Below are positions 4,246 through 61,080 of a stretch of 64,000 nucleotides of DNA, piece after piece (the stretch's first letter is position 1; every line of letters starts with the position of its first letter). The position numbers and the translations under genes were made by a program. The stretch covers positions 23,162,391 to 23,226,390 of the forward strand of contig CM032126.1 of NCBI GenBank assembly GCA_018894105.1, written 5' to 3'. The notes below the pieces were generated by a model. That model saw only the letters and a program-made list of their open reading frames with translations, was not told where the DNA came from and made no database searches. This DNA is from Jacaranda mimosifolia (taxonomy: Eukaryota; Streptophyta; Magnoliopsida; Lamiales; Bignoniaceae).

Positions 4246-4256
4246 GGAAGCAACCC

Positions 4257-7372: not shown

Positions 7373-7394
7373 GCTTTTAGGGCAAGTAGGAAAT

Positions 7395-7493: not shown

Positions 7494-7505
7494 TAGGGGT
7501 GTCAA

Positions 7506-14150: not shown

Positions 14151-14460
14151 AAGGCAAGACGATTGGATTGCACGCCTTCAGAAAATTATTTCTAATGAGA
14201 AGGCTCGCCAATTTTTTTTTCAAATTTAGATTGATTGTTTTATCGAAACTTCCATAAGCTTTTAATGGACTTCTAGCGACTATTCTGTGAAAAATTTTCT
14301 AAAACGGTTCACCATAATATATATATTTTTTATATTTTTTCATTTGAGGCTATTATTGAGGAAATTCTATTAGTAATTGATAGAGTTTTGAAACTACTAT
14401 GATTGGCTCTAAGACAATTAGTGAATTAACTAAAAATGGCTCAATAACTTAAAATTAATT
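14151..14460. other. Unassigned junction between Copia-A and Tat-1
   Basis: AT-rich, no coding signal. It may contain a diverged end of the Copia-A LTR and the start of the Tat-1 LTR. I cannot place either boundary. Confidence 0.4.
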
Positions 14461-31364: not shown

Positions 31365-32133
31365 AATATGTAATTATGTATGGGAAATGATAAATTTGAA
31401 AATGGTTCCCATTTAATTTTTTTAAGAAATTACAATCCTGTTGACTATATTACATAAGATGGCGTTTGGCAATGAACTTAGTTTGCTCACCGCATTTTGA
31501 AGAAAATTATGATCCATTTATAACTATGCAAGTTATGATTATTTTCATATGTAGAAATTTAGTGTATTTCGAATACTTTTTGTATCATAAAAGAGATCTG
31601 ACAACTTAAAATTTGGTCTCAAAAACTTCTTTTAATAATAAAAAAATAAATCTGTAGTATGAAAAATAACTATAAATTAATCTTTGAAAGCCATCTCTAG
31701 TTTTATATGTACTATAGGGATGTAATATTTTGGTAGCATCTTTAATCAAGTACTATTAGAAGAGCGCTAGTCAAGAGAGGTAAATGGAAGAAGTTCATGA
31801 AAAAAAAAATTATTTTCTTAATAACAAGATGTTAAATATTGATTTAAATATTGACAATGTTGTATATATTAAATGAAATTTTTTTTATTGGTACATATCT
31901 ATTAGTTGTGGCCATCTTACTGGTAGCAAATATTGTTCTTTATGTTGTCTATAAATACATTTCTTGGTATATTGGGTTTGAGTTCTATAGAAAATAATAG
32001 GGGAACCAACAAAATTCTCTTTGTTAGAAGAAAAATAAAACATTAACATATACATACGCATAATAGTCAATTCTAATTCCGGCTTCGGACTCTGACTTTG
32101 TTTAAGGCCTTCTACTATGGTTGTTACTTCATA
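31365..32133. other. AT-rich spacer with nothing recognised
   Basis: No coding or repeat signal beyond AT-rich tracts. The last five bases, TCATA (32129-32133), are the left target duplication of Copia-C. A minus-strand 87-codon ORF at 31885-32148 overlaps the LTR start and is not supported. Confidence 0.5.
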
Positions 32134-32402
32134 TATTAAAGTTCTCATATTAGCTTGCTTTCATTCTCCTTCTAATCTTATGCACAAATGTAATCCAGTT
32201 AGTTAGGGTTAGTTTGTGATTAATTAGTTTGTCATTTTGTGAGTTGGCTAGCAAATTAATTAGCTTTCTTTTTGGCCAGCCAGTCATGTATATAAATAGG
32301 CATACATTAATGCCTTGCAAAGTATGTTATAGAAATCAATACTCACTTTCTCTCATTTTCCTAGCTAAAGCACAATTTTTATGGCAAGTTTGTTCTCTAA
32401 TA
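32134..32402 (+). repeat. Copia-C 5' LTR (269 bp)
   Basis: Ends form a short inverted repeat, TATTAAAG...CTCTAATA. It aligns with 50698-50959 over its whole length, with a few indels. Confidence 0.93.
32289..32298 (+). promoter_or_regulatory. TATA box of the Copia-C LTR promoter
   Basis: TATATAAATA, preserved at 50846-50855 in the other LTR. It lies about 110 bases before the LTR end, a usual place for the element's RNA polymerase II promoter. Confidence 0.55.
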
Positions 32403-32414
32403 TAGTATCAGCAG
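32403..32414 (+). other. Primer-binding site of Copia-C
   Basis: TAGTATCAGCAG directly after the LTR, close to TGGTATCAGAGC, the initiator-methionine tRNA site used by copia elements. Confidence 0.75.
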
Positions 32415-32506
32415 TTATCTTCCCAATTGGTTCTACCAACATATAACTTCTTTTCCTTCTGATCATTCTCCCCTTCTCCGATCAAATTTCGATTTGATTT
32501 TCTCCC

Positions 32507-33480
32507 ATGGATTTTCCTCAATCCTCAAACTTCAACTCTTTTAATGGCCAATCCACCATTGATGACTCCTCTAATCCTTTCTTCCTCCACCACAAAGACA
32601 ATCCCAGTCTGGTACTAGTTTCTCAACTGCTTACATGTGATAATTAGTTTCCGTGGAGCAAATCTATTGAAATTGCCTTATCCATGAGGAATAAACTTGA
32701 ATTTGTGGATGACACAATCTGGAAGTTGAATTCAAATGATGAATAACTTTTAAGCGCATGGACTCAAAATTCTGGAAGTTGAATTTTGATGATGAATCAC
32801 TTTTGAGCGCATGGACTCAAAATAACAACATTGTTATTTCATAGCTTCTCAAGAAATCTCGACTAGCATCATCTTTTCTGATTTTGCAAAGGATATTTCG
32901 GATGATTTGAAAGAGCGATTCCAATAGAGCAATGGACAGTGGATTTTCTAGCTTCACTATGCACTAATCACTCTCACACAAGGATTGACTTCTGTTGTAG
33001 TATATTTTACAAAAATTGAAAGCTGTATGGGAAGAGCTAAGCAACTACAGGCTGAATAGCAATTGCAGGCAATGTTCATGTGGAGGTTTAAAGGAAATAC
33101 AAGAATACTATCATCGTGAATATGTACTGATATTTCTCATAGGCCCCAATGAATCCTTCCCTCAAATTCGAGGTCTAATACTACTTCAGGATCCTCTGTC
33201 ATCTATCACTGAGGTATTCTCTCTAATTTCACAAGATGAAAGACAATGCTCCATTACTGTTCTACCTTCCGGTGATCTCAACAATTATACAGCCTTTATT
33301 GTGAAAAGTGATCATGCAAAACCAGCAGCTAAGGTGTCTGAAAAACCCATACATGGAAATTCTCCTACATATAAAGATCCTTGCCATGATCGGCTGTTTT
33401 GTACTCAATATAATTACATTGGACATATAGTTCATACTTGTTACAAAATCCACGGTTATCCGCCAAGATTCAAGTTCTAG
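32507..33480 (+). pseudogene. gag: Copia-C gag with zinc knuckle, broken
   Basis: ATG 32507 opens MDFPQSSNFN. PFFLHHKDNPSLVLVSQLLT (about 32577-32636) is the copia gag N-terminal motif. A damaged middle carries a 53-bp duplication. The open piece 33016-33480 has the gag C-terminal half (KAVWEELSNYRLNSNCRQCS, IQEYYHREYVLIFLIG) and the knuckle CTQYNYIGHIVHTC. In the knuckle, Tyr replaces the second Cys of CX2CX4HX4C. From 33376 the sequence is also the first unit of the array. Stops near 32642 and 32745 and shifts near 32890-32930 break it. Confidence 0.85.
32719..32824 (+). repeat. 53-bp tandem duplication within gag
   Basis: Copies 32719-32771 and 32772-32824, both starting CTGGAAGTTGAATT and including GCGCATGGACTCAAAAT. 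53 is not a multiple of three, so it shifts the gag frame. Confidence 0.85.
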
Positions 33481-36400
33481 TCGCGAAACAGTCCCGCACC
33501 TCAGTCTTCTTAGTCAATCTTGTTCTGTTAACCAAGTATTTGATCAAGTTTCGCATTCCAACATTGATAACTTCATTTAGACACTCAATCCATCTCAATG
33601 TGCTCAATTGGTAAATAAGCTTTCCTTACATGTTAATCCTGCTATCAAATCCAGAGAATCAGATCCTCAATCTATATCACACTTCCCAAGTATATGCTTC
33701 AATGTCAAATCTATCTCTTAACCTTTCTAATAATGGATTATTGATTCCAGTGCATCTTCACATAGATGCTCCAACATCAATCTATTTTCTCGTCATGATC
33801 TTATACATAACTCTACTGTCTCTCTGCCCAATAGTACTCAAATTTATATCTTCTATGTCGGCTCTATTAGATTAAGCCCTAGCTTAATCATTCGCAATGT
33901 CCTATAAATGCCTCAATTTAAATAATATTTGTTTTCTGTTAGTACCTTGATTAAAGACCTAGTTCTCACTATCATCTTCTCTCCTGGTCATGGTACGGTG
34001 CAAGATCCTAAGAATTCGACCCTAATTCGCAAGGGTGAGCACAATGGTAGTCAAATTTATATCCTCTATATCCACTCTATTAGATTAACCCTTAGGCCTC
34101 ACAGTCATCTTCTCTCCTAGCCATGTTACGATGCAGGACCCCAAGAATTTAACTCTGGTTGGCAAGTGTGAACATAATGGTACTCAAATTTATATCCTCT
34201 ATATCAGCTCTATTACATTAATCCATAGCTTAATCATTCGCAATATCCTATTTACCACAATTTAAATACCATTTTTCGTCTGTTAGTGGCTTGATTAAAG
34301 ATCTTCGCCATGATTAGCTATTTTGTACTCAATATAAATACTATGGCCATACAGTTCATACTTGTTACAAAATTCGTAGCCATCCGCTAGGATTCAAGTT
34401 TTGGTCTCGAAACAGTCTTGCACCTCAGTCTTCTTAGTCAATCTGGTTCTATTAACCAAGTATCTGATCAAGTTTTGCACTCCAACATTGATAACTTCAT
34501 TTAGACACTAAATCCATCTCAATGTGCTTAGTTGCTAAATAAGCTTTCCTCACACGTTCTTCCTTCTATCAAATCCAGTGAATCAGATCCTCCATCTATA
34601 TGACACTTCCCGAGTATATACTTAAATGTCAAATCTATCTCTTAACCTTTCTAGTCATGGATTACTGACACCAGTGCATCTTCACATATATGCTCCAACA
34701 TCAATCTATTCTCTCGTCATGATCTTATACACAACTCTACTGTCTCTTTGCCCAATAGTACTCAAATTTATATCTTCTGTGTCGGCTCTATTAGATTATA
34801 CCCTAGCATAATCATTCGCAATGTCCAATATATGCCTCAATTTAAGTAATATTTGTTCTCTGTTAGTACCTTGATTAAAGACCTAGGTCTCACTCTCAAC
34901 ATCTCTCCTGGTCATGGTACGGTGCAGGACCCCAAGAATTCGACTCTAATTCGCAAGGGTGAGCACAATGGTAGTCAAATTTATATCCTTTATATCGGCT
35001 CTATTAGATTAACCCCAAGCTTAATCATTTCCAATGTCCTATATATGCCACAATTAAAATACCATTTGCTGTCTGTTAGTGCATTGATAAAAGACCTAGG
35101 TCTCGCTGTCTCTTTTCTCCTAGCTATGTTACGATGCAGGACCCCAAGAATTTGACTCTGGTTGGCAAGTGCGAGCACAACGGTACTCAAATTTATATCC
35201 TCTATATCGGCTTTACTAGATTAACCCCTGGCTTAATTTTTCACAATGTCCTATATATGCCGCAATTTAAATATCATTTGCCATCTGTTAGTGCCTTGAT
35301 TAAAGATCCTCGCCATGATCGACTATTTTGTAATCAATATAATTACTATGGCCATATAGTTCATACTTGTTACAAAATCCATGGCTATCTTCCAAGATTC
35401 AAGTTCTGGCCGCGTAACAGTCCTACACCTTAGTCTTCTCAGTCAGTCTGATCCTGTTAACCAAGTATCTGATCAAGTTTCCCATTCCACCGTTGATAAC
35501 TTCATTTAGACACTCAATCTATCTCAATGTGCTTAGTTGCTAAATATGGTTTCCTCACACGTTCCTCCTACTATCAAATCAAATGAATCAGATCCTCTAT
35601 CTATATCTCACTTCCCAAGTTCATGCTTCAATGTCAACTATATCTCTTAACCTATCTAGTCATGGATTATTGACTCCAGTGCATCTTCACATATATGCTC
35701 CAACATCAATCTATTCTCTCGTCAGGATTTTATACACAACTCTATTATCTCTTGGCCCAATAGTACTCAAATGTATATCCTCTATGTCGGCTCTATTAGA
35801 TTTACCCCTAGCTTGATCATTCGCAATGTCCTATATATGCCTCAATTTAAATATTATATGTTTTCTGTTAGTACCTTGATTAAAGACCTAGGCCTCACTA
35901 TCATCTTCTCTTCTATCCATAGTACGATGTAGGACCCCAAGAATTTGACTCCAATTGGCAATGGTGAGCACAATGGTACTCAAATTTATATCCTCTATAT
36001 CGGCTCTATTAGATTAACCCCTAGCTTAATCATTCGCAATGTCCCATATATGCCACAATTCAATTACCATTTGCTGTCTGTTAGTGCATTGATAAAAGAC
36101 CTAGGTCTCACTGTCTCTTTTCTCCTAGCCATGTTACGATGCAGGACCCCAAGAATTTGACTCTGGTTGGCAAGTGCGAGCACAACGGTACTCAAATTTA
36201 TATCCTCTATATCGGCTCTATTTGATTAACCCCTAGCTTAATCTTTCGCAATATCCTATATATGCCGCAATTTAAATACCATTTGTCATCTGTTAGTGCC
36301 TTGATTAAAGATCCTCGCCATGATCGACTGTTTTGTACTCAATATAATTACTATGGCCATATAGTTAATACTTGTTACAAAATCCAAAGCTATCCGCCAA

Positions 36401-39400
36401 GATTCAAGTTCTGGCCGTGAAATAGTCATGCAGCTCAGTCTTCTCAGTCAATTTGGTCCTGTTAACCAAGTATCTGATCAAGTTTCCCTTTCCAGCGTTG
36501 ATAACTTCATTTAGACACTCAATCCATCCCAATGTGCTCAGTTGCTAAATGAGCTTTTCGCACACGTTCCTCCTTCTATCAAATCCAGTGAATCAGATTC
36601 TCCATCAATATGACACTTCCCGAGTGTATACTTCAATGTCAAATCTATCTCTTAACCTTTATAGTCAAGGATTATTGGCACCAGTGCATCTTCACATATA
36701 TGCTCCAACATCAACCTATTATCTCGTCATGATCTTATACACAACTCTACTATCTCTTTGCCCAATAGTACTCAAATTTATATCTTCTATGCCGGCTCTA
36801 TTAGATTAAGCTTTAGCCCAATCATTCGCAATGTCCTATATATGCCTCAATTTAAGTAATATTTTGTTGTCTATTAGTACCTTGATTAAAGACCTAGGTC
36901 TCACTCTCATCTTCTCTCATGTTCATGGTACGGAGCACGACCCCAAGAATTCGACTCTAATTCGCAAGGGTGAGCACAATGGTAGTAAAATTTATATCCT
37001 CTGTATCGGCTCTATTAGATTAACCCCAAGCTTAATCATTTGCAATGTCCTCTATATGCCACAATTAAAATACCATTTGCTGTCTGTTAGTGCATTGATA
37101 AAAGACCTAGGTCTCGCTGTCTCTTTTCTCCTAGCTATGTTACGATGCAGGACCCCGAGAATTTGACTCTGGTTGGCAAGTGCGAGCATAAAGGTACTCA
37201 AATTTATATCCACTATATCGGTTCTATTAGATTAACCCTTAGCTTAATCTTTCACAATGTCCTACAGATGCCGCAATTTTAATATCATTTGCCGTCTGTT
37301 AATGCCTTGATTAAAGATCCTCGCCATGATCAACTGTTTTCTACTCAATATAATTACTATTGCCATATATTTCATACTTGTTACAAAATCCATGGCTATC
37401 CACCAAGATTCAAGTTCTGGCCGAGAAAACAGTCCTGCACCTCAGTCTTCTCAGTCAGTGTGGTCCTGTTAACCAAGTATCTGATCAAGTTTTCCTTTCC
37501 ACCGTTAATAACTTCATTTCGACACCCAATCTATCTCAATGTGGTTAGTTGCTAAATATGCTTTCCTCATACGTTCCTCCTGCTATCAAATCCAGTGAAT
37601 CAGATCATCCATCTATATCTCATTTCCCAAGTATATGCTTCAATGTCAACTATATCTCTTAACCTTTCTAGTCATGGATTATTGAATCCAGTGCATCTTC
37701 ACATATATGCTCCAACATCAATCTATTATCTCGTCAAGATTTTATACACAACTCTACTATCTCGTTGCCCAATATTACTCAAATTTATATCCTCTATGTC
37801 GGCTCTATTAGATTAACCCCTAGCTCGATCATTCGCAATGCCTATATATGCCTCAATTTAAATATAATTTGTTTTCTGTTAGTACCTTTATTAAAGACCT
37901 AGGTCTCACTATCATCCTCTCTTCTGTCCATAGTACGATGTAGGACCCCAAGAATTTGACTCCAATTGGCAATGGTGAGCAGAACGGTACTCAAATTTAT
38001 ATCCTCTATATCGGCTCTATTAGATTAACCCCTAGCTTAATCATTCACAATGTCCCGTATATGCCACAATTCAAATACCATTTGCTGTCTGTTAGTACAT
38101 TGATAAAAGACCTAGGTCTCGCTATCTCTTTTCTCCTATCCATGTTACGATGCAGGACCCCAAGAATTTGACTCTGGTTGGCAAGTGCGAGCACAACGGT
38201 ACTCAAATTTATATACTCTATATCGGCTCTATAAGATTAACCCCTAGCTTAATCTTTTGCAATGTCCTATATATGCCGCAATTTAAATACCATTTGTCAT
38301 CTGTTAGTGCCTTGATTAAAGATCCTCGCCATGATCGACTGTTTTGTACTCAATATAAATACTTTCGCCATATGGTTCATACTTGTTACAAAATCCATAG
38401 CTATCCGCCAAGATTCAAGTTCTGGCCGCGAAACAGTCCTGCACCTCAGTCTTCTCAGTCAATCTGGTCCTGTTAACCATGTATCTGATCAAGTTTCCCA
38501 TTCTAGCGTTGATAACTTCATTTAGACACTCAATCCATCTCAATGTGCTCAGTTTCTAAATAAGCTTTTCGCACACGTTCCTCCTTCTATCAAATCTAGT
38601 GAATCAGATCCTCCACCTATATGACACTTCCCGAGTATATGCTTCAATGTCAAATCTATCTCTTAACCTTTCTAGGCATGGATTATTGACACCAGCGCAT
38701 CTTCACATATTTGCTCAAACATCAATCTATTATCTCGTCATGATCCTATACACAACTCTACTGTCTCTTGGCCCAATAGTACTCAAATGTATATCCTCTA
38801 TGTCGGCTCTATTAGATTAACCGCTAGCTTGATCATTCGCAATGTCCTATATATGCCTCAATTTAAATATTATTTGTTTTCTGTTAGTACCTTGATTAAA
38901 GACCTAGGTCTCACTATCATCTTCTCTTCTGTCCATAGTACGATGCAGGACCCCAAGAATTTGACTCCAATTGGCAATGGTGAGCGCAATGGTACTCAAA
39001 TTTATATCCTCTACATCGGCTCTATTAGATTAACCCCTAGCTTAATCATTCGCATTGTCTTATATATGCCACAATTCAAATACCATTTGCTGTCTGTTAG
39101 TGCATTGATAAAAGACCGTGGTCTCGCTGTCACTTTTCTCCTAGCCATGTTACGATGCAGGACCCCAAGAATTTGACTTTAGTTGGCAAGTGCGAGCACA
39201 ATGGTACTCAAATTTATATCCTCTATATCGGTTCTATTAGATTAACCCATAGCTTAATCTTTCGGAATGTCCTACAGAGGCCGCAATTTTAATATCATTT
39301 GTCGTCTGTTAATACCTTGATTAAAGATCCTCGCCATGATCAACTGTTTTCTATTCAATATAATTACTATAGCCATATAGTTCATACTTGTTACAAAATC

Positions 39401-42400
39401 CATGGCTATCTGCCAAGATTCAAGTTCTGGCCGCGAAAACAGTCCTCACCTCAGTGTTCTCAGTCAGTCTGGTCCTGTTAACCAAGTATCTGATCAAGTT
39501 TTCCATTCCACCGTTAATAACTTCATTTCGACACTCAATCTATCTCAATGTGCTTAGTTGCTAAATATGCTTTCCTCACACATTCCTCCTGCTATCAAAT
39601 CCAGTGAATCAGATCCTCCATCTATATCTCATTTCCCAAGTATATGCTTCAATGTCAACTATCTCTTAACCTTTCTAGTCATAGATTATTAACTCCAGTG
39701 AATCTTCACATATATGCTCCAACATCAATCTATTATCTCATCAGGATTTTATACACAACTCTACTATCTCTTTGCCCAATGGTACTCAAATTTATATCCT
39801 CTATGTCGGCTCTATTAGATTAACCCCTAGCTCGATCATTCGCAATGTCCTATATATGCCTCAATTTAAATATTATTTGTTTTCTGTTAGTACCTTGATT
39901 GAAGACCTAGGTCTCACTATCATCTTTTCTTCTGTCCATAGTATGATGCAGGACCCCAAGAATATGACTCCAATTGGCAATGGTGAGCACAACGGTACTC
40001 AAATTTATATCCTCTATATCGGTTCTATTAGATTAACCCATAGCTTAATCATTCGCAATGTCCCATATATGCCACAATTCAAATACCATTTGCTGTCTGT
40101 TAATGCATTGATAAAAGACCTAGGTCTCCCTGTCTCTTTTCTCCTAGCCATGTTACGATGCAGGACCCCAAGAATTTGACTCTGCTTGACAAGTACGAGC
40201 ACAACGGTACTCAAATTTATATACTCTATATCGGCTCTATAAGATTAACCCCAAACTTAATCTTTCGCAATGTCCTATATATGCCGCAATTTAAATACCA
40301 TTTGTCGTCTGTTAGTGCCTTGATTAAAGATCCTCGCCATGATCGACTGTTTTGTACTCAATATAATTACTTTGGCCATATAGTTCATACTTGTTACAAA
40401 ATCCATGGCTATCCGCCAAGATTCAAGTTCTGGCCGCGAAACAGTCCTGCACCTCAGTCTTCTCAGTCAATCGGGTCCTGTTAACCAAGTATCTGATCAA
40501 ATTTCCCATTCCAGCGTTGATAACTTCATTTAGACACTCAATCCATCTCAATGTGCTCAGTTGCTAAATAAGCTTTTCGCACACGTTCCTCCTTCTATCA
40601 AATGTAGTGAATCAGATCCTCCATCTATATGACACTTCCCGAGTATATACTTCAATGTCAAATCTATCTCTTAACCTTTCTAGGCATAGATTATTGACAC
40701 CAGTGCATCTTCACATATATGCTCGAACATCAATCTGTTATCTCATCATGATCTTATACACAACTCTACAATCCTATTGCCCAATAGTGCTCAAATGTAT
40801 ATCCTCTGTGTCGGCTCTATTAGATTAACCATTAGCTTGATCATTTGCAATATGCCTATATATGCCTCAATTTAAATATAAATTGTTTTCTGTTAGTACC
40901 TTTATTAAAGACCTAGGTCTCAATATCATTTCCTCTTCTGTCCGCAGTACGATGCAGGACCGCAGGAATTTGACTCCAATTGGCAATGGTGAGCACAACG
41001 GTACTCAAATTTATATACTCTATATCGGCTCTATTAGATTAACCCCTAGCTTAATCATTCGCAATGTCCCATATATGCCGCAATTCAAATACCATTTTCT
41101 GTCTGTTAGTGCATTGATAAAAGGCATAGGTCTCGCTGTCTTTTTTCTCCTAGCCATGTTACGATGCAGGACCCCAAGAATTTGACTCTAGTTGGCAAGT
41201 GCGAGCACAACGGTACTCAAATTTATATCCTCTATATCGGTTCTATAAGATTAACCGCTAGCTTAATCTTTCGCAATGTCCTATATATGTCGCAATTTAA
41301 ATACCATTTGCCGTCTGTTAGTACCTTGATTAAAGATCCTCGCCATGATCGACTGTTTTGTACTCAATATAATTACATTGGCCATATAGTTCGTACTTGT
41401 TACAAAATCCATGGCTATCCGCCAAGATTCAAGTTCTGGCCGCGAAATAGTCCTACAGCTCAGTCTTCTCAGTCAATCTGGTCCTGTTAACCAAGTATCT
41501 GATCAAATTTCCCATTCCAGCGTTGATAACTTAATTTAGACACTCAATCTATCTCAATGTGCTTAGTTGCTAAATATGCTTTCCTCACACGTTCCTCCTG
41601 CTATCAAATCCAGTGAATCAGATCCTCCATCTATATCTCATTTCCCAAGTATTTGCTTCATTGTTAACTATATCTCTTAACCTTTCCAGTCATAGATTAT
41701 TAACTCCAGTGCATCTTTACATATATGCTCCAACATGAATCTATTATCTCGTCAGGATTTTATACACAAATCTACTATCTCTTTGCCCAATAGTACTCAA
41801 ATTTATATCCTCTATGTCGGCTCTATTAGATTAACACCAAGTTCAATCATTCGCAAAGTCCTATATATGCCTCAATTTAAATATTATTTGTTTTTTGTTA
41901 GTACCTTTATTAAGGACCTAGGTCTCACTATCATCTTCTCTTCTGTCCATAGTATGATGCAGGACCCCAAGAATTTGACTCCAATTGGCAATGGTGAGCA
42001 CAACAGTACTCAAATTTATATCCTCTATATCGGCTCTATTAGATTAACTCCTAGCTTAATCATTCGCAATGTCCCATATATGCCGCAATTCAAATACCAT
42101 TTGCTGTCTGTTAGTGCATTGATAAAAGACCTAGGTCTCGCTATCTCTTTTCTCCTAGCCATGTTACGATGCAGGACCCCAAGAATTTGACTCTGGTTAG
42201 CAAGTGCGAGCACAACGGTACTCAAATTTATATCCTCTATATCGGTTCTATAAGATTAACCCCTAGCTTAATCTTTCGCAATGTCCTATATATGTCGCAA
42301 TTTAAATACCATTTGCCGTCTGTTAGTACCTTGATTAAAGATCCTCGCCATGATCGACTGTTTTGTACTCAATATAATTACTTTGGCCATATAGTTCGTA

Positions 42401-44724
42401 GTTGTTACAAAATCCATGGCTATCCGCCAAGATTCAAGTTCTGGCCGCGAAACAGTCCTGCAGCTCAGTCTTCTCAGTCAATTTGGTCCTGTTAACCAAG
42501 TATCTGATCAAATTTCCTATTCCAGTGTTGATAACTTAATTTAGACACTCAATCTATCTCAATGTGCTTAGTTGCTAAATATGCTTTCCTCACACGTTTC
42601 TCCTGCTATCAAATCCAGTGAATCAGATCCTCCATCTATATCTCATTTCCCAAGTATTTGCTTCAATGTCAACTATATCTCTTAACCTTTCTAGTCAGGG
42701 ATTATTGACTCTAGTGCATCTTCACATATATGCTCCAACATCAATCTATTATCTCGTCAGGATTTTATACACAAATCTACTATCTCTTTGCCCAATAGTA
42801 CTCAAATTTATATCCTCTATGTCGGCTCTATTAGATTAACCCCTAGCTCGATCATTCGCAATGTCCTATATATGCCTCAATTTAAATATTATTTGTTTTC
42901 TGTTAGTACCTTGATTAAAGACCTAGGTCTCACTATCATCTTCTCTTCTGTCCATAGTACGATGCAGGACCCCAAGAATTTGACTCCAATTGGCAATGGT
43001 GAGCACAATAGTACTCAAATTTATATCCTCCATATCGGCTCTATTAGATTAACCCTTAGCTTAATCATTCGCAATGTCCTATATATGCCACAATTGAAAT
43101 ACCATTTGTTGTCTGTTAGTGCATTGATTAAAGACCTAGGCCTCATTGTTATCTTCTCTCCTAGCCATGTTGCGATGCATGATCCCAAGAATTTGACTTT
43201 GGTTGGCAAGTGTGAGCACAATGGTACTCAAATTTGTATCCTCTATATCGGCTCTATTAGATTAACCAGTAGCTTAATCATTCGCAATGTCCTATTTATG
43301 CCACAATTTAAATACCATTTGCTGTCTGTTAGTGCATTGATTAAAGACCTAGGCCTCATTGTCATATTCTCTCCTAGCCATGTTGCGATGCAGGATCCCA
43401 AGAATTTGACTCTGGTTGGCAAGTGTGAGCACAATGGTACTTAAATTTGTATCCTCTATATCGACTCTATTAGATTAACCCCTACCTTAATCATTCTCAA
43501 TGTCCTATACATGCCACAATTTAAATACCATTTGTCGTCTGTTAGTGCTTCGATTAAAGATCCTCGCCATGATCAGCTATTTTGTACTCAATATAATTAC
43601 TATGGCCATACAGTTCATACTTGTTACAAAATCCATGGCTATCCACAAAGATTAAAGTTATGGCCGCGAAATAGTCCTGCACCTTAGTCTTCTTAGTCAA
43701 TCTGGTCCTGTTAACCAATTATCTGAACAAGTTTCCCGTTCCAGCATTGATAACTTAATTTAGATACTTAATCCATCTCAATGTGCTCAGTTGCTAAATA
43801 TGCTTCCCTCACACGTTCCTCCTGCTATCAAATCCAGTGAATCAGATCCTCTATCTGTATCTCACTTCCCAAGTATATGCTTCATTGTCAATTTGATCTC
43901 TTAACCTTTCTAATCATGGATTATTGACTCCAGTGCATCTTCACATATATGCTCCAACATCAATCTATTCTCTCGCCATGATCTTATACACAACTCTACT
44001 ATGTCTTTGCCCAATAGTACTCAAATTTATATCTTCTATGTCGGCTCTATTAGATTAACCCCTAGCTTAATCATTCGCAATGTCCTATATATGCCACAAT
44101 TTAAATACCATTTGCTGTCTGTTAGTGCCTTGTTAAAGACCTAGGCCTCACTGTCATCTTCTCTTTTAGCCATGTTACGATGCAAGACCCCAAGAATTCG
44201 ACTCTAATTCGCAAGGGTGAGCACAATGGTACTCAAATTTATATCATCTATATCGGCTCTATTAGATTAACCCCTAGCTTAATCATTCGCAATGTCCTAT
44301 ATGTGCCGCAATTTAAATACAATTTGTCGTCTATTAGTGCCTTGATTAAAGATCCTCACCATGGTTGGCTGTTTTGTACTCAATATAATTACTATGGCCA
44401 TACAGTTCATACTTGTTACAAAATCCATGGCTATCTGCCAGGATTCAAGTCTGGCTGCAAAATAGTCCTAAACCTCAGTCGTCTCAGGCAATCTGGTCCT
44501 GTTAACCAAGTATCTAATTAAGTTTTGCATTCCAACATTGATAACTTCATTTAGACACTTAATCCATCTCAATGTGCTCAGTGCTAAATATGCTTTCCTT
44601 ACACGTTTCTTCTGCTATCAAATCCAGTGAATCAGATCCTCCATTTATATCTCACTTCCCAAGTATATGCTTCAATGTTAATTCTATCTCTTAACTTTTG
44701 TAATCATGGATTATTGACTCCAGT
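33376..44724 (+). repeat. Satellite-like array: 12 units of a zinc-knuckle plus protease segment
   Basis: The knuckle start GATCCTCGCCATGATCG recurs at 33376, 34300, 35305, 36310, 37316, 38321, 39326, 40329, 41335, 42340, 43559 and 44351. Most spacings are 1003-1006 bases; the others are 924, 1219 and 792. A standard unit is about 460 bases of knuckle, linker and protease head (WIIDSSAS-type), then sub-repeat A (213), B (212), and 120 bases of a third sub-repeat that runs straight into the next knuckle. The 1219 and 792 units have one sub-repeat more or fewer. Units 2-9 alternate between two sequence types. ORFs of 60-218 codons throughout are fragments of these repeats, not genes. Confidence 0.96.
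42788..43444 (+). pseudogene. Longest open stretch in the array: three in-frame protease sub-repeats
   Basis: 218 codons covering three complete 71-codon repeats, each with TQIYILYVGSIRLTPS, IIRNVLYMPQFKYHLLSV and ALIKDLGL. This is the part of copia protease downstream of the active site. It stays open only because this unit (the 1219-base one) has three sub-repeats of exactly 213 bases. No active-site Asp, start context or partner domain is present. It is more likely a chance survivor than a gene. Confidence 0.75.
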
Positions 44725-47125
44725 TGTAATGCCCCACAATTTTATTTCGTATTTAAGCGATTACTTTACCTTATTTTATTTTATTTATTATTTAAATTAA
44801 AAAAATTGTAATGCCTTAGAATATTTTTTAAATTAATTAATTATTTTATCCTATGTTGTTTTATTTTCGCTTAGTCTTGGTTTCTTATTATATCAGTTCG
44901 TAAAATAATATATATATATATATTTCTCTTGCATTAGATTTACCTCTAGATTTAATAGTAAGACTTAGTATTTAAGACCACAAATATATATACATATATA
45001 TGATATCGCAATTCTTGAGAAAAAGTTATAATTTTCAGAAACTAGTATTATATTATTACTAGAAATTAGTAATTGAGACCTTATGAATTTATAATAGAGT
45101 GGTCAGATTTATTAAAGGGTTATCCTATTCCTAGGTGATTAATAATTAGAGTTCTAGTTGAGGCAAATCACTTACTCTTTACGAAATATTAGACCTACAC
45201 CCTAAAACCCTAGATACACATTTAGTTTTAAGAAAAATAAAAGAAAAGAAAAGAAGAGAGAAAAAAAAAGAGAAAAGAAAAACAACGGAGAGCAACGGGA
45301 AAAGGGGAAAGAAAGGAGAAGTCGGAGAACAAAGGTGTCCAGAAACATCAGACGGTAGCAGGGAGTAGGAAAGGTAATTCAAGATTGCACTTACTTCAAT
45401 TGATTCTCCTATTTCATATATGCATGAAGAAAACCGAGGGTACAAGATAGAAATTATAAAGGAAATTAATTTGTGTGTTCTTTGTAGCTATCAATTTTGA
45501 CCAAAAATAGGCTAATTTTGAATTTGAATTCACCTTTTTTCAGCTACAAGTGTTGGTTTATGATTTACAAAGCCACAATTGTTTACTTGTTATATAAGTA
45601 GAAGAAAAAAAAATAAAAGAAGAAAAATAGAGAGAACCGTGAGGGCCGAGGGGGAAGCAACCTTTGGGCATGTGGGTTTTTATTTCTGATGGGTTAAATT
45701 AGCAGCTGTATAATTTGATGTATGCATGTACACATACATGTGTGGGATATGACAGATTAGTAAATCGATTTTGGTAAATTGATTGAAGGTAATGACTTTT
45801 ATAAATTGGAATTTTGGGTTTTTGAAGACGAAACTTAACTTGATTGTTGGTTTTTGGTTATGTTAGTTGATTGTATTGGGTTGAAGTTCCATAGAGTAAA
45901 ATTATCTAGTATCAAATAAGGTTGTTAGGTCTTAAGACACTACAGGCTTTTAGTACCCATAAGGTTAGTCTTAGTGAGTTTTGTCTTATTAATCAGTTAA
46001 ATTGATGATTGAAGTGTTTAATAAATAAATCAGGTGACTCAGCGATTGATTCTGAGATAAGAGATTGACGTATAGGATTAATCTCAAAGGTGAGTGTCTA
46101 AACCTATAAATACTATATATTGTATGTTTCAAAACCCAGAAGGATATATGCTATTATAAAATTGTTCGTGACTTGTTTTCAACTTACACTACACTATATA
46201 CGTACTCCACTGTGCACAAAAAAGAAATATTTTTTCTCGCTTTATTTCTGATGCTTCTAGACTAGCAAATTAAACTTGATGATCAACTGATTACTGTTAC
46301 TATTACTGCTATTGTTACTGTTAGTTGGATCTAACTTGGTCTGGGGTGTGAGGGACTTCACTGGGCAGTAACGGGCTAGCCAGTTGAATACCAAGCCCCC
46401 ATGGCCTAATCCCCCTAGCGCACAACAGAAGCTATTTGTGGCTGAGATGCGTCGTAGGAATTCCCGCAGAAGCTCGAACACTGTTTTGCTAAGGTCACAC
46501 CTTGCTCGGAGCGATAAGGGACTGTTATGATAGGAGTCATAAGGTTGACTGGCTACAACAAAACTGACTGATCATCGTATTTAAGTTGATAGTCTAGGAA
46601 ATCGTTTAATGAAATTTTGATTGGTTACTGCTTGATCGTTCATAAATTTCTCGATTGTTACTGTTAGACTATTTTATGAATCCCACTTATATTACTCAAA
46701 AATTCCGATTGTACAAAATAATTTTAATTCAAGAATTCACTTTACACACACTTGGCACTCACTGAGTCTTTTACTCACACTCATTTCTTTTTTTTAACTT
46801 CCTTATCACATACATCAATTCTAGTCCTAGTGAGGAGGTAGATCCTGCATATGATGAGAATAAAGGGTGAAGACGTAGTTTTTGGAATTTTCTGTAGACT
46901 AGTATATTTTCTATTAAGTTCGTTAGTTTTGTTTTATTTGTTATGGATTTTATTGTGTTTAGTTTCAGAAACATTTTGATACTTTGAGTTTTATGTTGTG
47001 AGTTTGCTAGGAATTGGATGAGTTCTTATTTAACCTTATGTTTTTTGATTGTTAGTTTCATTTATTTGAGATTAAATTTCACGCTCAATTCTAGTATAAA
47101 TATGGTTTAATTTTAGGGCGTGACA
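44725..47125. mobile_element. Solo LTR (2,401 bp), probably Ty3/gypsy, inserted in array unit 12
   Basis: Starts TGTAATGCCCC and ends GGGCGTGACA, with TG...CA ends. CCAGT precedes it (44720-44724) and GCAGT follows (47126-47130): a five-base duplication with one mismatch. All other array units read uninterrupted across this point, which fixes the ends. There is no coding region and no second LTR, so it is the product of LTR-LTR recombination. TGTAA...TTACA-like ends and this size recall Del/Tekay-type gypsy LTRs; the lineage is a guess. It contains an AT microsatellite at about 44908-44924. Confidence 0.88.
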
Positions 47126-47130
47126 GCAGT

Positions 47131-47853
47131 GCATCTTCACATATATGCTCCAACATCAATCTATTCTCTCGTCATGATCTTATACACAACTAAACTATCT
47201 CTTTGCCTAATAGTACTTAAATTTATATCCTCTATATCAGCTCTATTAGATTAACCCCTAGCTTAATCATTCGTAATGTCCTATATATGCCACAATTTAA
47301 ATACCATTTGTTGTCTGTTAGTACCTTGATTAAAGACCTAGGCCTCACTGTCATCTTCTCTCCTAGCCATGTTACGATGCAGAACCCCAAGAATTTGACT
47401 CTGGTTGGCAAGTGTGAGCACAATGGTACTCAAATTTATATCCTCTATATCGACTCTATTAGATTAACCCCTAGCTTAATCATTCGCAATGTTCTATATG
47501 TGCCACAATTTAAATACCATTTGTCGTCTATTAGTGCCTTGATTAAAGACCTAGGTCTCACTGTCTCTTCTCTCCTAGCCATGTTACGATGTAGGACCCC
47601 AAGAATTTGACTCTGATTGGCAAGTGTGAGCACAATGGTACTCAAATTTATATCCTCTATATTGGCTCTATTAGATTAACCCCTAGCTTAATCATTCGCA
47701 ATGTCCTATATATGCCACAATTTAAATACCGTTTGTTGTCTATTAGAGCCTTGATTAAAGACCTAGGACTCACTATCATCTTCTCTCCTGACCATGTTAT
47801 GATGCAGAACCCCAAGAATTTGACTCTAATTGGCAAGGGTGAGCAAGTAGCTG
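47131..47853 (+). repeat. Array tail: protease head and three sub-repeats after the solo LTR
   Basis: Continues unit 12 after the insertion. ACTYAAATTT marks occur at 47215, 47428 and 47640 (spacings 213 and 212). The last repeat leads into the normal protease end, LTLIGKGEQVAGLYIL, so this is the 3' edge of the amplified region. Confidence 0.9.
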
Positions 47854-48897
47854 GCCTATATATCCTTAACCTGCTTTCTATCAAACAACATGTAAGCATT
47901 TATCATGCCAACACCTATCACCACACACACGACACTTTAATGCACCTTTGGTACAGTAGCTTAGGACACCCATCTCATAAGGTCCTTAACAGCTTGAAAC
48001 ACCTTTTTAACATAAATAAGTCTACTATACTTTCCTATTGTAACATCTGTCCTCTTGCAAAACAAAGAAATTTGCCTTTTATATCTCACAATAACTTTGC
48101 AAAAGCTCATTTTGATCTTCTACATGGGGACATTTGGGGACCTTTTCACTACACTTCATACAATGGTTACAAACATTTCTTATCTTTAGTTGATGATAAT
48201 ACATGGTTCACTTGGATATTTTTATTAAAACAAAAGTTTGACATAAGCTCAATTCTTTATAAGTTTTTCAAAATGATTTCCACCCAGTGCAACTGTTCCA
48301 TAAAACAATTCCTATCCGATAATGGCAAAGAATTTGCTTTAACCGAACTATTTCACAAATATAGCACTCTCCACCAACTTACATGTGTTGAGACCCCCCA
48401 ACAAAACTATGTGTAGAGCGTAAGCACCAACATCTATTAAACATCACTACAACATTATTCTTTCAAACTAAAATTCCTATCTATTTTTTATCCGAATGTG
48501 TTCTTACTGTTGCTTATCTAATCAATAGGACTCATTCACAGCTGTTACCACAAAAATCACCATATGAAATTCTCTACAAAACACCTCCAGACTACTCCAC
48601 TTAAGAAACTTGGGTTGCTTAGCTTACGCGTCTACATTATCCACTCATAAGACAAAGTTCAAACCTAGAGCTACATTATGTGTCTTTCCTGGTTACGCTA
48701 CTGGTACCAAGGGATATAAGCTCCTTAATCTTTACTCTAAGAACATACTCATATCTAAAAATGTCAAATTCTGTGACACTATCTTTCCATTCCAAAATAA
48801 ACCAACTCTTGACAGCAATATTAATTCATTCCCGGATGTTGGTCTTCATAATCTTCTTAATATTTGTTTAGCTGACATTCCAAATTCTCCTTTATAG
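47840..48897 (+). pseudogene. Copia-C pre-integrase and integrase
   Basis: Open to 48416. The pre-integrase motif (LWYSSLGHPSHKVLN, then CNICPLAKQRNLPF) is followed by the core. The first catalytic Asp is in LLHGDIWGPF (48129-48131), the second in FLSDNGKEF. The Glu-bearing V-E-R-K-H segment lies just past a small frameshift near 48405. The piece 48610-48897 is the C-terminal part ([32 protein letters not shown]). Integrase inserts cDNA into chromosomes. It is the best preserved enzyme of this element, but still broken. Confidence 0.88.
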
Positions 48898-49159
48898 CAT
48901 GATCATCTCCCTACCCAGGATCACCGACTCCTCCACCACAGCCTTTTATTCAACTCAGACGATCTTCCCGTATAAGCAAACCCCCATCTTATCTCACTGA
49001 CTATTACTATTGTCTCCTCCAAAAGTTTGCCTAGTAAAGTCACTCTACTTACCTTATTTCCATATACATCTCCTAGTCATCATTATATCTCCATCACAAA
49101 CACTTTCTCCTCTGCATCTCATCCCATATTGAACCCCAAACATTTAAACAAGTTACAAA

Positions 49160-50640
49160 ATACCCTGAGTGACAACTATGAAGAGTGAACTCAATGTTAT
49201 GGAAAATAACCACACATGGTCTGTCATCCCTCTCTTGTATGGAAAACAACCCATTGGCTATAAATGGTATATAAATTAAAGTTCAAAAATAATGGTAGCA
49301 TAGATAGATACAAGGCCCACCTTGTAGCTAAGGGATATACCCAACAAGAGGGTGTTGACTTCATTGATATTTTTTCCCTAGTAGCTAAACTAACCACCAT
49401 CAAATTGCTCTTTACTACTGTTGTAATCAAGAGATGGCATTTACATCAACTGGATGTTAGTAACGCTTTTCTGAATGGGGACTTGTTTATGGAAATCTAC
49501 ATAGAATTTCCCCATGATGACACTCTTCCTGTCACACATTGCACACCACCACAAAAATTTACTTGTAGGTTACATAAGTCCATTTATGAATTGAAGTAGG
49601 CTTCCCGTCAATTACATTCTAAAGTCACTAAGGTGCTCTTTCACTTAGAATTTACATAGTTGAAATCTTAGTACAGTTTGTTCATCTATGGTTCTAGCTC
49701 ATCCTTGGTTGTGGTACTTGTATATGTTGATGATATAATTTTGGTCAGTCCCTCCGAAGCTTCCGTAAATAACTTCAAATTGGCTCTTCAACAAAAATTT
49801 AAGTTGCAAGCCTTGGAATATTAAAATATTTTCTCAACCTCGAGATCAATCGTTCTTCCACAGATATCACTATGACCCTACACCTATATGCTCTTCCGTT
49901 GCTCAAAGATACAAGTTTCCTTGCCGCTAAACCTAACACCACCCCTATAGATCTGAAGTCTCTACTAAGTGCTGATAATGGTGATATCTTGAGAAATCTA
50001 TCACAATATAATAGTCTAATTGGTCAACTGTTATACCTCACTGTATCCCGTCCGGACATCACATTCACCATTCGTATACCCAGCCAGTTTGTGTCTCAAC
50101 CTCGCCAACCATGTCTACAAGTAGTGCACCACCTTTTTTGCTAAATCAATAGTATTCCAAGTCAGGGGCTATTTTTCTCGTCTACATCATCTATCCAACT
50201 TAATGCCTTTTCATACGCCGACTGGGCCTCTTGTATGGATGGACTCCCACAAATCGACAACCAATTTCTGTGTATTTCTCAATCACTCATTTATATCTTG
50301 AAAATTGAAGAAGCAATCCACCATAGCCCGATCATCTACTAAAGCAGAATATCAAGCCCTCGCCATGGCTTCCTATGAAATTCTTTAGCTTCAACAACTC
50401 CTTGGTGATCTCCATCTCTTTTCTACAGTTCCCGCCCTCATTTCCTATAATAATGATGTTGCTCTTCACATCGCATCCAACCCGATTTCTACTAAAGGAC
50501 AAAACGCATAGAGGTTAACTGTTATTTTATATGTGACAAGGTGTCTGTTGGTCGGATCAAGTTCACGCCTGTTCGATCCTCAAGACAACTCATTGACATC
50601 TTTACCAAGCCTCTACCGGTAGCTAGCTATCACCTCTACT
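49160..50640 (+). pseudogene. Copia-C reverse transcriptase and RNase H, broken
   Basis: RT landmarks: NNHTWSVIPL, KAHLVAKGYTQQEGVDFIDI and LHQLDVSNAFLNGDLFMEIY in 49200-49599, then the intact catalytic VYVDDIILVS (YVDD at 49723-49734). RNase H shows SRPDITF near 50050 and ARSSTKAEYQALA near 50330. Stops include TAG at 49597 where copia proteins have Gln. Frameshifts near 49640 and 49840 separate the pieces. The coding region ends about 60 bases before the 3' LTR. Confidence 0.87.
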
Positions 50641-50679
50641 CTTCAAGTTGGCAGTCAAAGATCTCCATTGTCCACCTTG

Positions 50680-50697
50680 ACCTAGGGGGTAGAGAGG
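50680..50697 (+). other. Polypurine tract of Copia-C
   Basis: CCTAGGGGGTAGAGAGG-type purine run directly before the 3' LTR, the primer for plus-strand DNA synthesis. Confidence 0.75.
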
Positions 50698-50959
50698 TAT
50701 TAGAGTTCTCATATTAGCTTGTTGTCATTCTCCTTTATAATCTCAAGCACAAATGTAATCCATTAAGTTAGGGATAGTTTGTAATTAATTAGTTCGTTAG
50801 TTGGTTAGCAGATTAATTAGCTTTCTTTTCGGCCAACTGGTCATGTATATAAATACGCATACATTAATGCCTTGTAAAGTGTATTATAGAAATCAATACT
50901 CACTTTCTCTCATTTTCCTGGCCTAAGCACACTTTTCATGGCAAGTTTGCTCTCTAATA
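50698..50959 (+). repeat. Copia-C 3' LTR (262 bp)
   Basis: TATTAGAG...CTCTAATA, aligned with 32134-32402, followed by the target duplication TCATA at 50960-50964. Confidence 0.93.
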
Positions 50960-52214
50960 TCATATCTCACTCTGGAGCTTAGACATCTCTGTTGAGTGGG
51001 ATAACTCTTCTGAAAGGATAATTTCTCAAATGTGACTTCTCCCAAAGTGTTGGTCAACTTGAGAAAAACCTAAATACTTGAGCAATAAATCATTACCAAG
51101 ATTCACGAAGAGTGCAAATTGCTAATTAAGCTCAACCTCCTGAAATAATGAGTAGACAAAATTACAACTTCATCAATTATTTTATTAATTAATTATTAAA
51201 ATTCAATTAAATGTAAGCTAGAACAAAATAATAATGAAATTAAATACGGTGGTAAGATAAAGTCAAATTAATCATTAAATTATACTTTCATTCGGAAGGG
51301 TATATTTCTTATTGAAAGTATGTGATCTAATGATATGATAAATTAACACCCTAAGGAAAAAAAAAAATTAAACAAATTAATTAAATAAAAAAGGGTCAAT
51401 ACTCCATTTCTGTATACATCAATTAGGATTCAGTTAGAGAATATTATTAGATACATCTATATTTATACATCAAACTCTTTACACAATTGAGCACTCTATA
51501 CGTAGACTAATTAGAGATTGTTATGGTCTCCTCTCTTACTCATTCTCGCCTTTATGTTGCATTATTTCAAGAAGCATTTTAATTGCAATCTTCATACATA
51601 TTCTCCCTTTCTCTCCTTTTCTTTTGTTTGCATACTCTATAGGTATGTTTCTAATGTGACAATAGGGACACACCTTGTGTGGGCTTGAGTATGTAGACTT
51701 TGTAGAGGAAAAGTATTTGATTTCTAGTGTGTAATTTGTAATATTCATCCTTGGAGCAAGAGAGAAAGTATTGCATCATCATTTTGATGTAGTCCTAGTT
51801 GATGACCGCTTTGGAGAGGAAATCATCAAGAACTTAATAGCTGGTTTTGGAACCCACTTAATCTTCATCAGCTAGAACTGAGAAGGTAAAAATAGCCCTT
51901 CTAAAATCTAAATTAAAAGGCAGGAAGATACCTTGGTTGACATTGGGAGAATTGGGGTTATTTATTGAAAGTTTTCTATGTAAATACCAAGTTAATTGGA
52001 ATTAGTTTTGCATTCCGCTGCATTTTTGTTTGTTCCTCCCTTTCTCAACGTGACCAACAAAAAGGCCACTAAGAATAATAGCGTAAGGGGGAACTAACTG
52101 CCAAATCCCAGCTCTAGAAATAGACTCAATAAGTCAAGTAGAAGCATCGAATGAAACCATACACTTGTTAGTCACTTACTTCGATTTGATTTTCTCCTTT
52201 TACGTTTCTAGACA

Positions 52215-56213: not shown

Positions 56214-56394
56214 GTATACTTTTCAACTTTCAAGATCATCATTTATAATGGAATCCTATTGCTTACAATTATTGGAAATTTTCATGGAAAACTCTCTTAA
56301 CATTCAAATTAAATATTGAAATAAAATGGGAATAAAACAAAGGTACTACAAAGGAAGTAAGCAGAGAGTTCTAGTGTTGATTATAAGCGGGTAT
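56214..56394. other. Short spacer before Copia-D
   Basis: No feature recognised. The last five bases, GGTAT (56390-56394), are the Copia-D left target duplication. Confidence 0.5.
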
Positions 56395-57050
56395 TGTTGA
56401 TTTTGCCTTAAAATTTGGGTTGAATTGACAAGAATTGGAAGAAGAACGGAGCGAAACAGGGCAAAGTGGTCGAAATGGGCTTGAGAACACACCCGGCGCG
56501 TGTTGGCAAGATGCCGAGCACCAGGGCACGAGGCAAGGTGCACCAAAGCATGGACATGGGCGGAAAAGGCATGAAAACACGCATCGTGTGCCCCAGCGTG
56601 CAATGAATAGTAAGTTTGCACCTGGGCGCAAGTTTTTTGCGCCCCAGCGCAAAGTTTCTGCCATACTACATGAAAAGCGAGCTAAGGCGCAAAAACAAAT
56701 TGCGCCCCAGCTCACGACGCAAGCCCACGGGCCTTGGCCTCGATTTTTGGGTATAAATATCAGTTTTTTCTTTCGAAAAAAGGATCACGAACATAACACA
56801 AGAGCTTCTTTATTGCTTTTGAGTAATTCTCTCAAGACGGAGTTTAGAACAAGGGTGTTATGTGTTTTTATGAGATTTGTGGGATTCAAATTTGTACTTA
56901 CACTTTGATTTGAGATTAATAAAATTCCTTTTCTTTGTTGGGTGGATTAGGCACATCGCCGAACTACGTTAAATCTTGTTGTCATATTCCATCGAATTAC
57001 TTTACTGTTACTTCATTATTTCCGCAATAAATCCTCCTAGGTTCCAACCA
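56395..57050 (+). repeat. Copia-D 5' LTR (656 bp)
   Basis: TGTTGATTTTGCC...CCAACCA. TATAAATA near 56752 is a plausible TATA box. It contains repeated TTGCGCCCCAGC words and a hairpin at 56681-56711. Cys-rich ORFs on the minus strand (56346-56715) and the plus-strand ORF 56435-56908 are LTR sequence, not genes. Confidence 0.92.
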
Positions 57051-57076: not shown

Positions 57077-57800
57077 ATGTCAGGCATGAAGTATGAGGAA
57101 GAGAAGTTTGATGGGAAGAACGACTTTGGGCTGTGAAAGATGAAGGTTCATTCCCTCATGTGTCAACAAGGTTTACAAAAAGCGTTAAAGGGTAGAGATT
57201 CCTTACCGGAGATGCTGAAAGATGAGGAGAAAGACGAGTTCATGGCAAAGGCTTACGGTACTCTGGTGTTATCATTGGCGGATAACGTACTAAGAGAGGT
57301 CGCCACGAAAAGTACGCTAGCGAATTTATGTAAGAAGCTAGAGAGTCCATATATGACAAAGTCCTTGACAAATTGGTTGTATTTGAAACAACGATTATAC
57401 ATATTAAGGATAAAGAAAGGTGCATCTATTACTCAGCATATTGATTTTTTCAATAAGGTGATTCTGGATCTCGCTAGTATAGATGTCAAAATTGATGATG
57501 AGGATCAAGCTTTAATTCTCTTGTGTTCTCTCCCAGAATCTTTTGAGCACTTGGTTACTACTTTGTTGTACATGAGAGATACAATTTCAATGGAGGATGT
57601 GAAGGCCTCATTGAATTCAACGAGTTGAGAAAATATGTTATGGGCAGCAATATGGTGAAAGTGGGGAATGATTGGTGGAAAAAGAGAGACCAAGAGAAAG
57701 GGGAAGGAGTAGAGGCCGATCGAAGTCCCAGACCAAGCCTAGAAACGGTGAGAAGTATTTTAAGTGCGGTGGAAAGGGGCATTGGAAATGAAATTATCGG
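57077..57800 (+). pseudogene. gag: Copia-D gag
   Basis: ATG 57077 begins MSGMKYEEEKFDGKNDFGL, then stop TGA at 57134 where Trp is usual (FDG...F-x-x-W). The rest of the capsid is open at 57140-57628: landmarks ADNVLREVATKSTLANLCKK, LYLKQRLYILRIKKGASITQ, LLCSLPESFEHLV. After a frameshift the zinc knuckle region at about 57741-57797 reads FKCGGKGHWK, with its first and last Cys lost. Gag packages the RNA. Confidence 0.88.
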
Positions 57801-59311: not shown

Positions 59312-60466
59312 TAGGAAAATGAACTACTATAAAATTATCGCTCAGCTCGCGATAGGGAAAAGAGGCAGATCAAATCACCACAGCGGTTTAATTACTCAGA
59401 TCTGGTAGCTTATGCTTTGAGTTTAGCCAAGGAGTTTGTAGGAGATGATCCAGTTTCATACAAAAAGGCAATTTCCAGGCTAGATTCTAATAGATAGGTT
59501 GCTGCTATGAGTGAAGAGATGGAGTCTCTAGACAAGAATAGCACATGGGAGCTGGTTGATGTAACCAAAAGGCAAAAGATTGTAGGTTACAAATGGATCT
59601 ACAAGAAGAAGAAAGGGATTTCGGTGTTGAAGATGCTAGATACAAGGCACGATTGGATACTAAGGGTTTTACTCAGAGAGAATGAGTTAACTTTTATGAA
59701 GTGTTCTCCCCAATTGTAAAACATACTTCCATTCGTGTTTTACTTACCATGGTTGCTCTGTTTGATATGGAGCTAGACTAGATGGATGTGAAAACAGTGT
59801 TTCTGCATGGTGAGTTGGAGGAACAAATCTACATGAAGTTAACCAGAAGGATTCGTTGTTCCCGGGAAACAAAATCAATCTTATCTTTTGAAGAGGTCAT
59901 TATATGGCTTGAAACAGTCTCCCAGACAGTGGTATAAAAGGTTTGATGCTTTTGTTACCAAGATAGGATATACTAGAAGTAAATTTGATTGTTGTGTATA
60001 TTACAAAATTTGTAGTGATACCCTTCTCGTATATTTGTTGTTGTACATTGATGATATGTTGATTGCCTCTAGAAATATATCTAAGATCAACCAATTAAAA
60101 GTTCAATTAAGTGAAGAATTTGAGATGAAGGATTTGGATAGTGTAAAGAAGATTTTGGGCATGGAGATCATTTGGGACAGACACACAGGATTGTTGTACT
60201 TATCTCAACAGCATTACATTGAGAAAGTATTTGAGCAATTTGGGATGGATAAGTCCAAGCTAGTTAGTACGCCACTTGCAGCTCATTTCAGACTCTCATC
60301 AGATCTATCACCGAGTACTGAGGAGGAGGTGGAGCACATGTCAAATGTGCCATATGCTAGTGCAGTGGGTAGCTTGATGTACGCCATGGTGTGCACTAGG
60401 CTAGACATTTCACATGCAATCAGTGTTGTGAGCAAGTATATGCACAAGCCAGGAAAGAGTCATTAG
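59312..60466 (+). pseudogene. Copia-D reverse transcriptase
   Basis: Begins near MSEEMESLDKNSTWELVDV (59507) after a stop at 59495. GYKWIYKKK, then a frameshift near 59640. The MDVKT...FLHGELEEQIYM block is near 59780, the catalytic YIDDMLIAS at 60044-60070, and RLDISHAISVVSKYMHKPGK at the end. The piece 59888-60466 is open. Stops at 59779 and 60464 fall at conserved Gln and Trp positions. Confidence 0.9.
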
Positions 60467-61070: not shown

Positions 61071-61080
61071 AGGTGGAGAA
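61071..61080 (+). other. Polypurine tract of Copia-D
   Basis: AGGTGGAGAA directly before the 3' LTR. Confidence 0.75.

Follow-up and report, generated by a model that had tools for sequence, protein, structure and literature searches.

Satellites derived from retrotransposons are well known, and the comparison below draws on the accessible parts of the papers cited (see also PMC5615363, PMC6947457). In maize, CRM1TR and CRM4TR are tandem repeats from the LTR-UTR region of Ty3/gypsy centromeric elements (Sharma et al. 2013, PMC3648361), and in Lathyrus sativus satellites derive from arrays in the 3' untranslated region (3'UTR) of Ogre elements (Vondrak et al. 2019, PMC7004042). Gag-like sequence has also been found in satellites, in E3900 of rye and in a Cereba-related repeat of wheat and rye (PMC9659126, PMC3648361). 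A review lists such gag-containing satellites and states that whichever part of an element is involved, it may give rise to them (PMC9659126).

The locus described here, a tandem array inside a Ty1/copia element, resembles each of these systems in part. Like CRM1TR and CRM4TR, which are locally homogenised, it is wholly retrotransposon-derived, and alternating composite units are seen within CRM4TR monomers. However, the maize loci are about 170 and 210 kb long, and the accessible text mentions no enclosing element (PMC3648361), while here a copia gag-protease segment is repeated inside its own element. The Ogre arrays are likewise short tandem arrays inside LTR retrotransposons and are proposed as seeds of satellites; in the text available, however, they are untranslated, lie downstream of gag-pol and occur in dispersed elements (PMC7004042). 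The present array does not belong to this Ogre/Tat 3'UTR type, as it lies between gag and integrase, in one copy, and 0 of 16 informative relatives carry it. E3900 and the Cereba-related repeat contain, as here, former retrotransposon coding sequence in tandem, but they come from Ty3/gypsy or other sources, and no array within the source element is described in the accessible parts of these papers (PMC9659126, PMC3648361).

For a copia gag-protease array we found no report in the literature, in which our coverage of subscription papers is limited. Higher-order satellite repeats, for example human alpha satellite, have nested periods and alternating unit types, which are explained by unequal exchange. 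Nesting and alternation are common to these repeats and to the present array, which differs in having only 12 units at one locus. What sets this locus apart is a combination: a copia gag-protease segment amplified in the element that still surrounds it, a single join, three levels of repetition, and siblings elsewhere in the genome that are not amplified.

The beginnings of satellites are mostly inferred from finished arrays without a surviving source. Here the source edges, the founding join, two nested growth steps and the unamplified siblings survive together, so that a single locus allows the sequence of steps to be tested. The array has clear bounds, is old and is local in origin; it is a dissectable array of an early type and no surprise in kind. 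It indicates that dead copia coding sequence can act as the seed of an array, and that a higher-order pattern is possible with about a dozen units, far below the size of a mature satellite.

The enclosing element and the units of the array

The window, by which we mean the whole stretch of DNA analysed (64,000 nucleotides, C10:23162391-23226390 of G000, a 707-Mb genome in 65 contigs), contains a Ty1/copia element of 18.8 kb at 32134-50959. Outside the array, the element and its flanks consist of the following features.

32129-32133, + strand: 5' target-site duplication TCATA, read directly, the same as 50960-50964
32134-32403, + strand: 5' LTR with the ends TATTA...CTAATA, pairing with 50698-50959/60 at 86.7% with gaps
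32404-33375, + strand: primer-site region and gag remnant, single copy, the same part being matched in the siblings L009 and L010
47846-50684, + strand: pol remnant with pre-integrase, integrase, SH3-like and reverse transcriptase pieces (Pfam PF13976, PF00665, PF25597, PF07727; the PF00665 (rve) match is below its curated cut-off)
50685-50697, + strand: polypurine tract, read directly, by eye
50698-50959, + strand: 3' LTR, from the comparison of the LTR pair
50960-50964, + strand: 3' target-site duplication TCATA, read directly

The paired LTRs with their target-site duplication and the order protease - integrase - reverse transcriptase are those of Ty1/copia. The Pfam domains follow each other as Pol_BBD in the array, then gag_pre-integrs, rve, SH3_retrovirus and RVT_2; no Pfam match was found for RNase H in the piece searched, nor for the gag open frame. 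The coding capacity of the element is not intact, with the array segment and pol in short frames. A 53-bp tandem duplication is also present in its gag part, near the array, at 32718-32823, and its copies differ at 5 of 53 positions.

Twelve head-to-tail units of about 1005 bp fill 33376-47845, except for a nested insertion. The array is made up of three modules: Z (458 bp, from the knuckle to the protease site), A (122 bp) and B (91 bp). A regular unit has the layout Z-A-B-A-B-A, in which A and B together form an inner repeat, a protease piece of about 213 bp, and between 2 and 4 A pieces are found in each unit. In total there are 12 Z, 36 A (one truncated) and 25 B modules. The units are 924, 1003-1006 (nine units), 1219 and 792 bp long, where the length of unit 12 is taken without its insertion and its last B.

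33376-34299, + strand: unit 1, 924 bp, a deletion cuts one A piece
34300-35304, + strand: unit 2, even type
35305-36309, + strand: unit 3, odd type
36310-37315, + strand: unit 4, even type
37316-38320, + strand: unit 5, odd type
38321-39325, + strand: unit 6, even type
39326-40328, + strand: unit 7, odd type
40329-41334, + strand: unit 8, even type
41335-42339, + strand: unit 9, odd type
42340-43558, + strand: unit 10, odd type, 1219 bp, one 213-bp AB piece extra
43559-44350, + strand: unit 11, 792 bp, without one AB piece
44351-44724, + strand: unit 12, first part, Z module as far as the insertion
44725-47125, no strand assigned: nested insertion, probable solo LTR, 2401 bp, with the ends TGTAATGCCC...GGGCGTGACA, read directly
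47131-47845, + strand: unit 12, second part, end of Z, then A-B-A-B-A-B, stopping at the native edge to pol

The edge to pol at 47845 is the same in the siblings, where it is single-copy. The insertion is flanked by a 5-bp target duplication with one mismatch (44720-44724 and 47126-47130, CCAGT/GCAGT), and from its ends and this duplication it is probably the solo LTR of another element.

The first-pass annotation had reported twelve tandem copies of about 1005 bp starting at 33376, in agreement with the 12 Z modules counted, and had them bracketed by LTRs, primer site, polypurine tract and target duplication. All of these were found, the primer site after the 5' LTR and the purine tract before the 3' LTR by eye. 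The end of the array had been placed at 44724 because the edge of the insertion was mistaken for it; the repeats resume at 47131 and run past the insertion to 47845. The head-to-tail repetition of one segment is confirmed; the internal 213-bp repeat and the alternation of two types had been missed.

In the unit alignment, a C-to-T (or G-to-A) change in one unit is found at 15 of 42 CG, 20 of 55 CHG and 58 of 293 CHH sites. The decay of methylated DNA would give such a pattern of single-unit changes.

Relatives, founding join and amplified segment

When the genome is searched for the 23-base junction between units with up to 3 mismatches, 12 matches are found in 707 Mb, 11 in the array and one on C4. 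The latter has 3 mismatches and no detectable similarity to the element within 6 kb around it, and was rejected as a chance match. Searching with pol gave 41 rows, with 40 of 100 candidates scored: the array copy, two siblings at 75% (on C5 and C7) and the rest at 64-74% over parts. Searching with the unit gave 14 rows in the genome, 3 of them inside the window; this query skips common words and misses most of the array, and the absence of the array elsewhere rests on the junction pattern search.

Together the pol and unit searches list about 44 distinct places outside the window, of which 18 were read. In all 16 informative relatives A and/or B is present once, and no second Z, A or B was found by blastn with 7-base words, where at the 65-80% identity of the distant relatives a strongly diverged second copy could escape. 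L017 and L027 are uninformative and stand outside the 16. The sibling L010 (G000:C5:27021500-27030500, positions 3039-7978) is a complete element of about 4.9 kb with LTRs that are 83.8% identical. Among the matches listed, L010 and L009 (C7) are the only siblings at 75%; they are about 15-16% apart, and both are without the array. At the protein level, 3 matches were obtained for pol, 0 for the AB open frame and 1 for gag, and no relative turned up among viral and prokaryote contigs; neither result has a bearing on plants.

As the junction is found only in the array and the relatives are single-copy, the array is private to one copy as far as the searches reach, the junction search being one that would miss strongly decayed copies, copies in withheld stretches and any array whose junctions carry more than 3 changes. 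This supports what the first-pass annotation had proposed, that a segment of one copia element was amplified locally and that both of its source edges can still be seen. It had also asked whether every copy of the family has the array, and the answer from the 16 informative relatives is that none does (18 read of about 44 listed). The word satellite is, strictly, too strong, since the junction search of the 707 Mb gave no further locus. Head-to-tail related units are present, but high copy number, long arrays and several loci are not, and with 12 units at a single locus the array does not qualify as a satellite family.

All 11 unit junctions share one position and the reading GATTAAAGATC; over 23 bases 9 of the 11 are identical, and the remaining two have 2 and 3 mismatches. 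The 23-base junction occurs 11 times in the window and 0 times in each of 100 shuffles, so chance is excluded. The native source edges read ATATAAAGATCC on the left and GATTAAAGACCT on the right, and a 6-bp match, TAAAGA, is common to both. In both siblings the left edge is ATATAGAGGTCC and the TAAAGA match is absent; therefore, among the three copies, the match exists in the amplified one only. As a single case, this shows an association between match and amplification and does not imply a cause. The reading frame is preserved by both founder joins, which would happen in 1 of 9 cases by chance alone. Such frame-keeping is unexpected in purely dead DNA and counts against it.

The amplified segment has the same defects in nearly every unit. 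What we take, from its motif, to be the zinc knuckle has its second cysteine replaced by tyrosine in all 12 units, and the residue that we presume to be the catalytic glycine is absent in 12 of 12. A TAA stands just upstream of the protease active site in every unit, the next stop is found in 11 of 12, and the spacer has a TAG in 10 of 12. A deletion of about 32 bp is present in all 12 units and in neither sibling, and both siblings have the glycine and no stop at any of the three places. Since the units have deletion, stops and glycine loss in common, the segment was most likely already non-coding at amplification, and the "coding segment" of the earlier description was most likely broken beforehand. 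It is possible that gene conversion spread the common defects instead; this fits less well, because the outer units are mostly 10-13% apart. In unit 10 an open frame of 218 residues (42788-43441) crosses three AB pieces and matches Pol_BBD twice (PF22936, E 1.9e-18).

Nesting, alternation and age

The array is nested on three levels: the 213-bp AB piece, the unit of about 1005 bp and a dimer of about 2010 bp. Comparing the AB copies across 10 of the 12 units (units 1 and 11 excluded), copies in the a-slot are 10.1% apart and those in the b-slot 7.5%, while a and b differ by 15.9%. Same-slot copies are thus closer to each other, and therefore the 213-bp duplication is older than the unit. The slot history is not clean, however, because a and b inside unit 12 are only 6.1% apart.

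Units 2-9 alternate between two types. Units two apart are more alike than neighbours (lag-2 distance 7.0% vs lag-1 9.6%), as in a higher-order repeat, and even/odd is the best-separating of the 35 possible 4:4 splits. Shuffling the order of units 2-9 gave 1152 of 40320 orders, all equivalent to even/odd, where 1/35 is the smallest attainable value. Perfect alternation is seen in 8 of the 78 informative two-letter columns, or 8 of the 13 that split 4:4, and 18 columns mark out units 2 and 4. The alternation is strongest in alignment columns 201-400, and elsewhere the distances within and between types are close; from this confinement we take it that exchange among units blurred the signal. When two relatives are used to root the tree, units 12 (support 0.65) and 11 (0.99) stand next to the root, and the inner units nest later, some nodes having low support. 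The position of the root speaks for an inward growth of the array, with the younger units inside. The closest inner units are 5.5-8% apart.

The LTRs differ at 28 of 261 positions, 10.7% (7.3-14.6; K2P 0.117). The outer units differ from the rest by 11.65% (10.4-13.0), which is indistinguishable from the LTR divergence, and therefore the first join took place near the time of insertion, before or after it. The lag-2 pairs, at 7.0% (6.2-7.9), lie below the LTR divergence (bootstrap fraction at or above the LTRs 0.024), as does the odd clade at 6.3% (0.0105). For four close pairs, chosen after the distances were seen, the divergence is 6.2% and the bootstrap 0.5%. A Fisher test of the LTRs against the average lag-2 pair is borderline (p = 0.051), with only 261 aligned bases offered by the LTRs. 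As the lag-2 pairs are below the LTR divergence, the growth of dimers most likely followed the insertion; gene conversion can also reduce the distances between units without growth of the array. The divergence of 15.9% between a and b exceeds that of the LTRs (bootstrap 0.96-0.98), and the first AB duplication could predate the insertion, with which unit 12 at 6.1% disagrees.

With a substitution rate of 1.3e-8 per site and year, which may not be that of the host, the insertion would be about 4-5 million years old. The labels "young" and "early stage", given in the first-pass annotation, do not suit LTRs and outer units with such divergences, and only the inner dimers look younger than the insertion.

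Origin of the array

We suggest, with a probability of roughly 0.74, that one microhomology join started the gag-protease array of this copia element and that unequal recombination then enlarged it in place. From the units, their nesting, the one junction type and the single-copy relatives, all directly observed, we infer the order and mechanism of growth as follows. In the lineage of the element, 213 bp (71 codons) of the protease region, A+B, would have been duplicated. Z-A-B-A-B-A would then have been duplicated, the edge after A being joined to the start of Z at TAAAGA. Unequal crossing-over or slippage by one unit, and later by two, could have produced the 12 units, with alternating dimers and the younger ones inside. 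A later element would finally have entered unit 12, where it is now probably a solo LTR.

The founding join could also have been made by template switching at TAAAGA during reverse transcription, so that several units were already present when the element inserted and only the dimers that came later are chromosomal. This is an unlikely course, although the short match at the join suits it and the outer units have the divergence of the LTRs, as if both clocks began at insertion; a chromosomal join soon after insertion predicts the same divergence, and the data do not separate the two. Still further from the evidence is an array inherited by a non-autonomous subfamily that moved with it, the sister copies being lost or missed. 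The founder was most likely broken before amplification, and a and b in AB diverge more than the LTRs, both as expected from such a history. But the junction is at one locus only in 707 Mb, a missed copy must have more than 3 changed bases in each of its junctions, and of the 18 relatives read, out of about 44 listed, all 16 informative ones, the two siblings among them, have the segment once. As a family trait the array was therefore rejected, and we regard this history as very unlikely.

It is highly improbable that the assembly stretched one or a few units into an array. An artefact of this kind should repeat near-identical sequence, but pairwise unit distances range from 5.5% to 13.2%, and the longest exact match between two units is 155 bp. 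Single units also have private indels, and the insertion that interrupts unit 12 has a mismatch in its target duplication; the artefact was rejected because the units are too different. That a function of the protein, as an in-frame multiplied protease domain, preserved the repeats is scarcely credible. The 213 bp are 71 codons, the frame is kept at both joins and the open frame of unit 10 matches Pol_BBD, but the units share their stops, the length of the deletion is not divisible by three and none of the 12 units retains the catalytic glycine. Of 233 singleton changes, 63, 86 and 84 fall in the three column phases, where the columns track codons roughly. Selection on the protein was thus rejected because of the common stops and the lost catalytic residue.

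Returning to a microhomology join followed by growth in place, a fuller and more doubtful version can be put forward tentatively. Copy-specific base changes might have created the 6-bp match, the first join might have occurred at or around insertion, and the chromosome might then have built the dimeric array in place, so that an accident of retrotransposition seeded a satellite. If true, single-copy coding DNA would have become a higher-order repeat with every step at one locus, and the unamplified siblings would represent the state before.

Other mobile elements are found in the same window. An LTR-like direct repeat pair at 8-1255 and 12825-14156 (87-89% identical) encloses pieces of copia gag and reverse transcriptase, and within it, on the minus strand at 8978-9655, lies part of a hAT-like transposase. 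A reverse transcriptase fragment at 15585-15974 (PF00078) probably belongs to a gypsy-type element. The direct repeat pair at 56393-57048 and 61080-61688 (83-88% identical) marks a third copia element, with gag at 57140-57628 and reverse transcriptase at 59888-60466.
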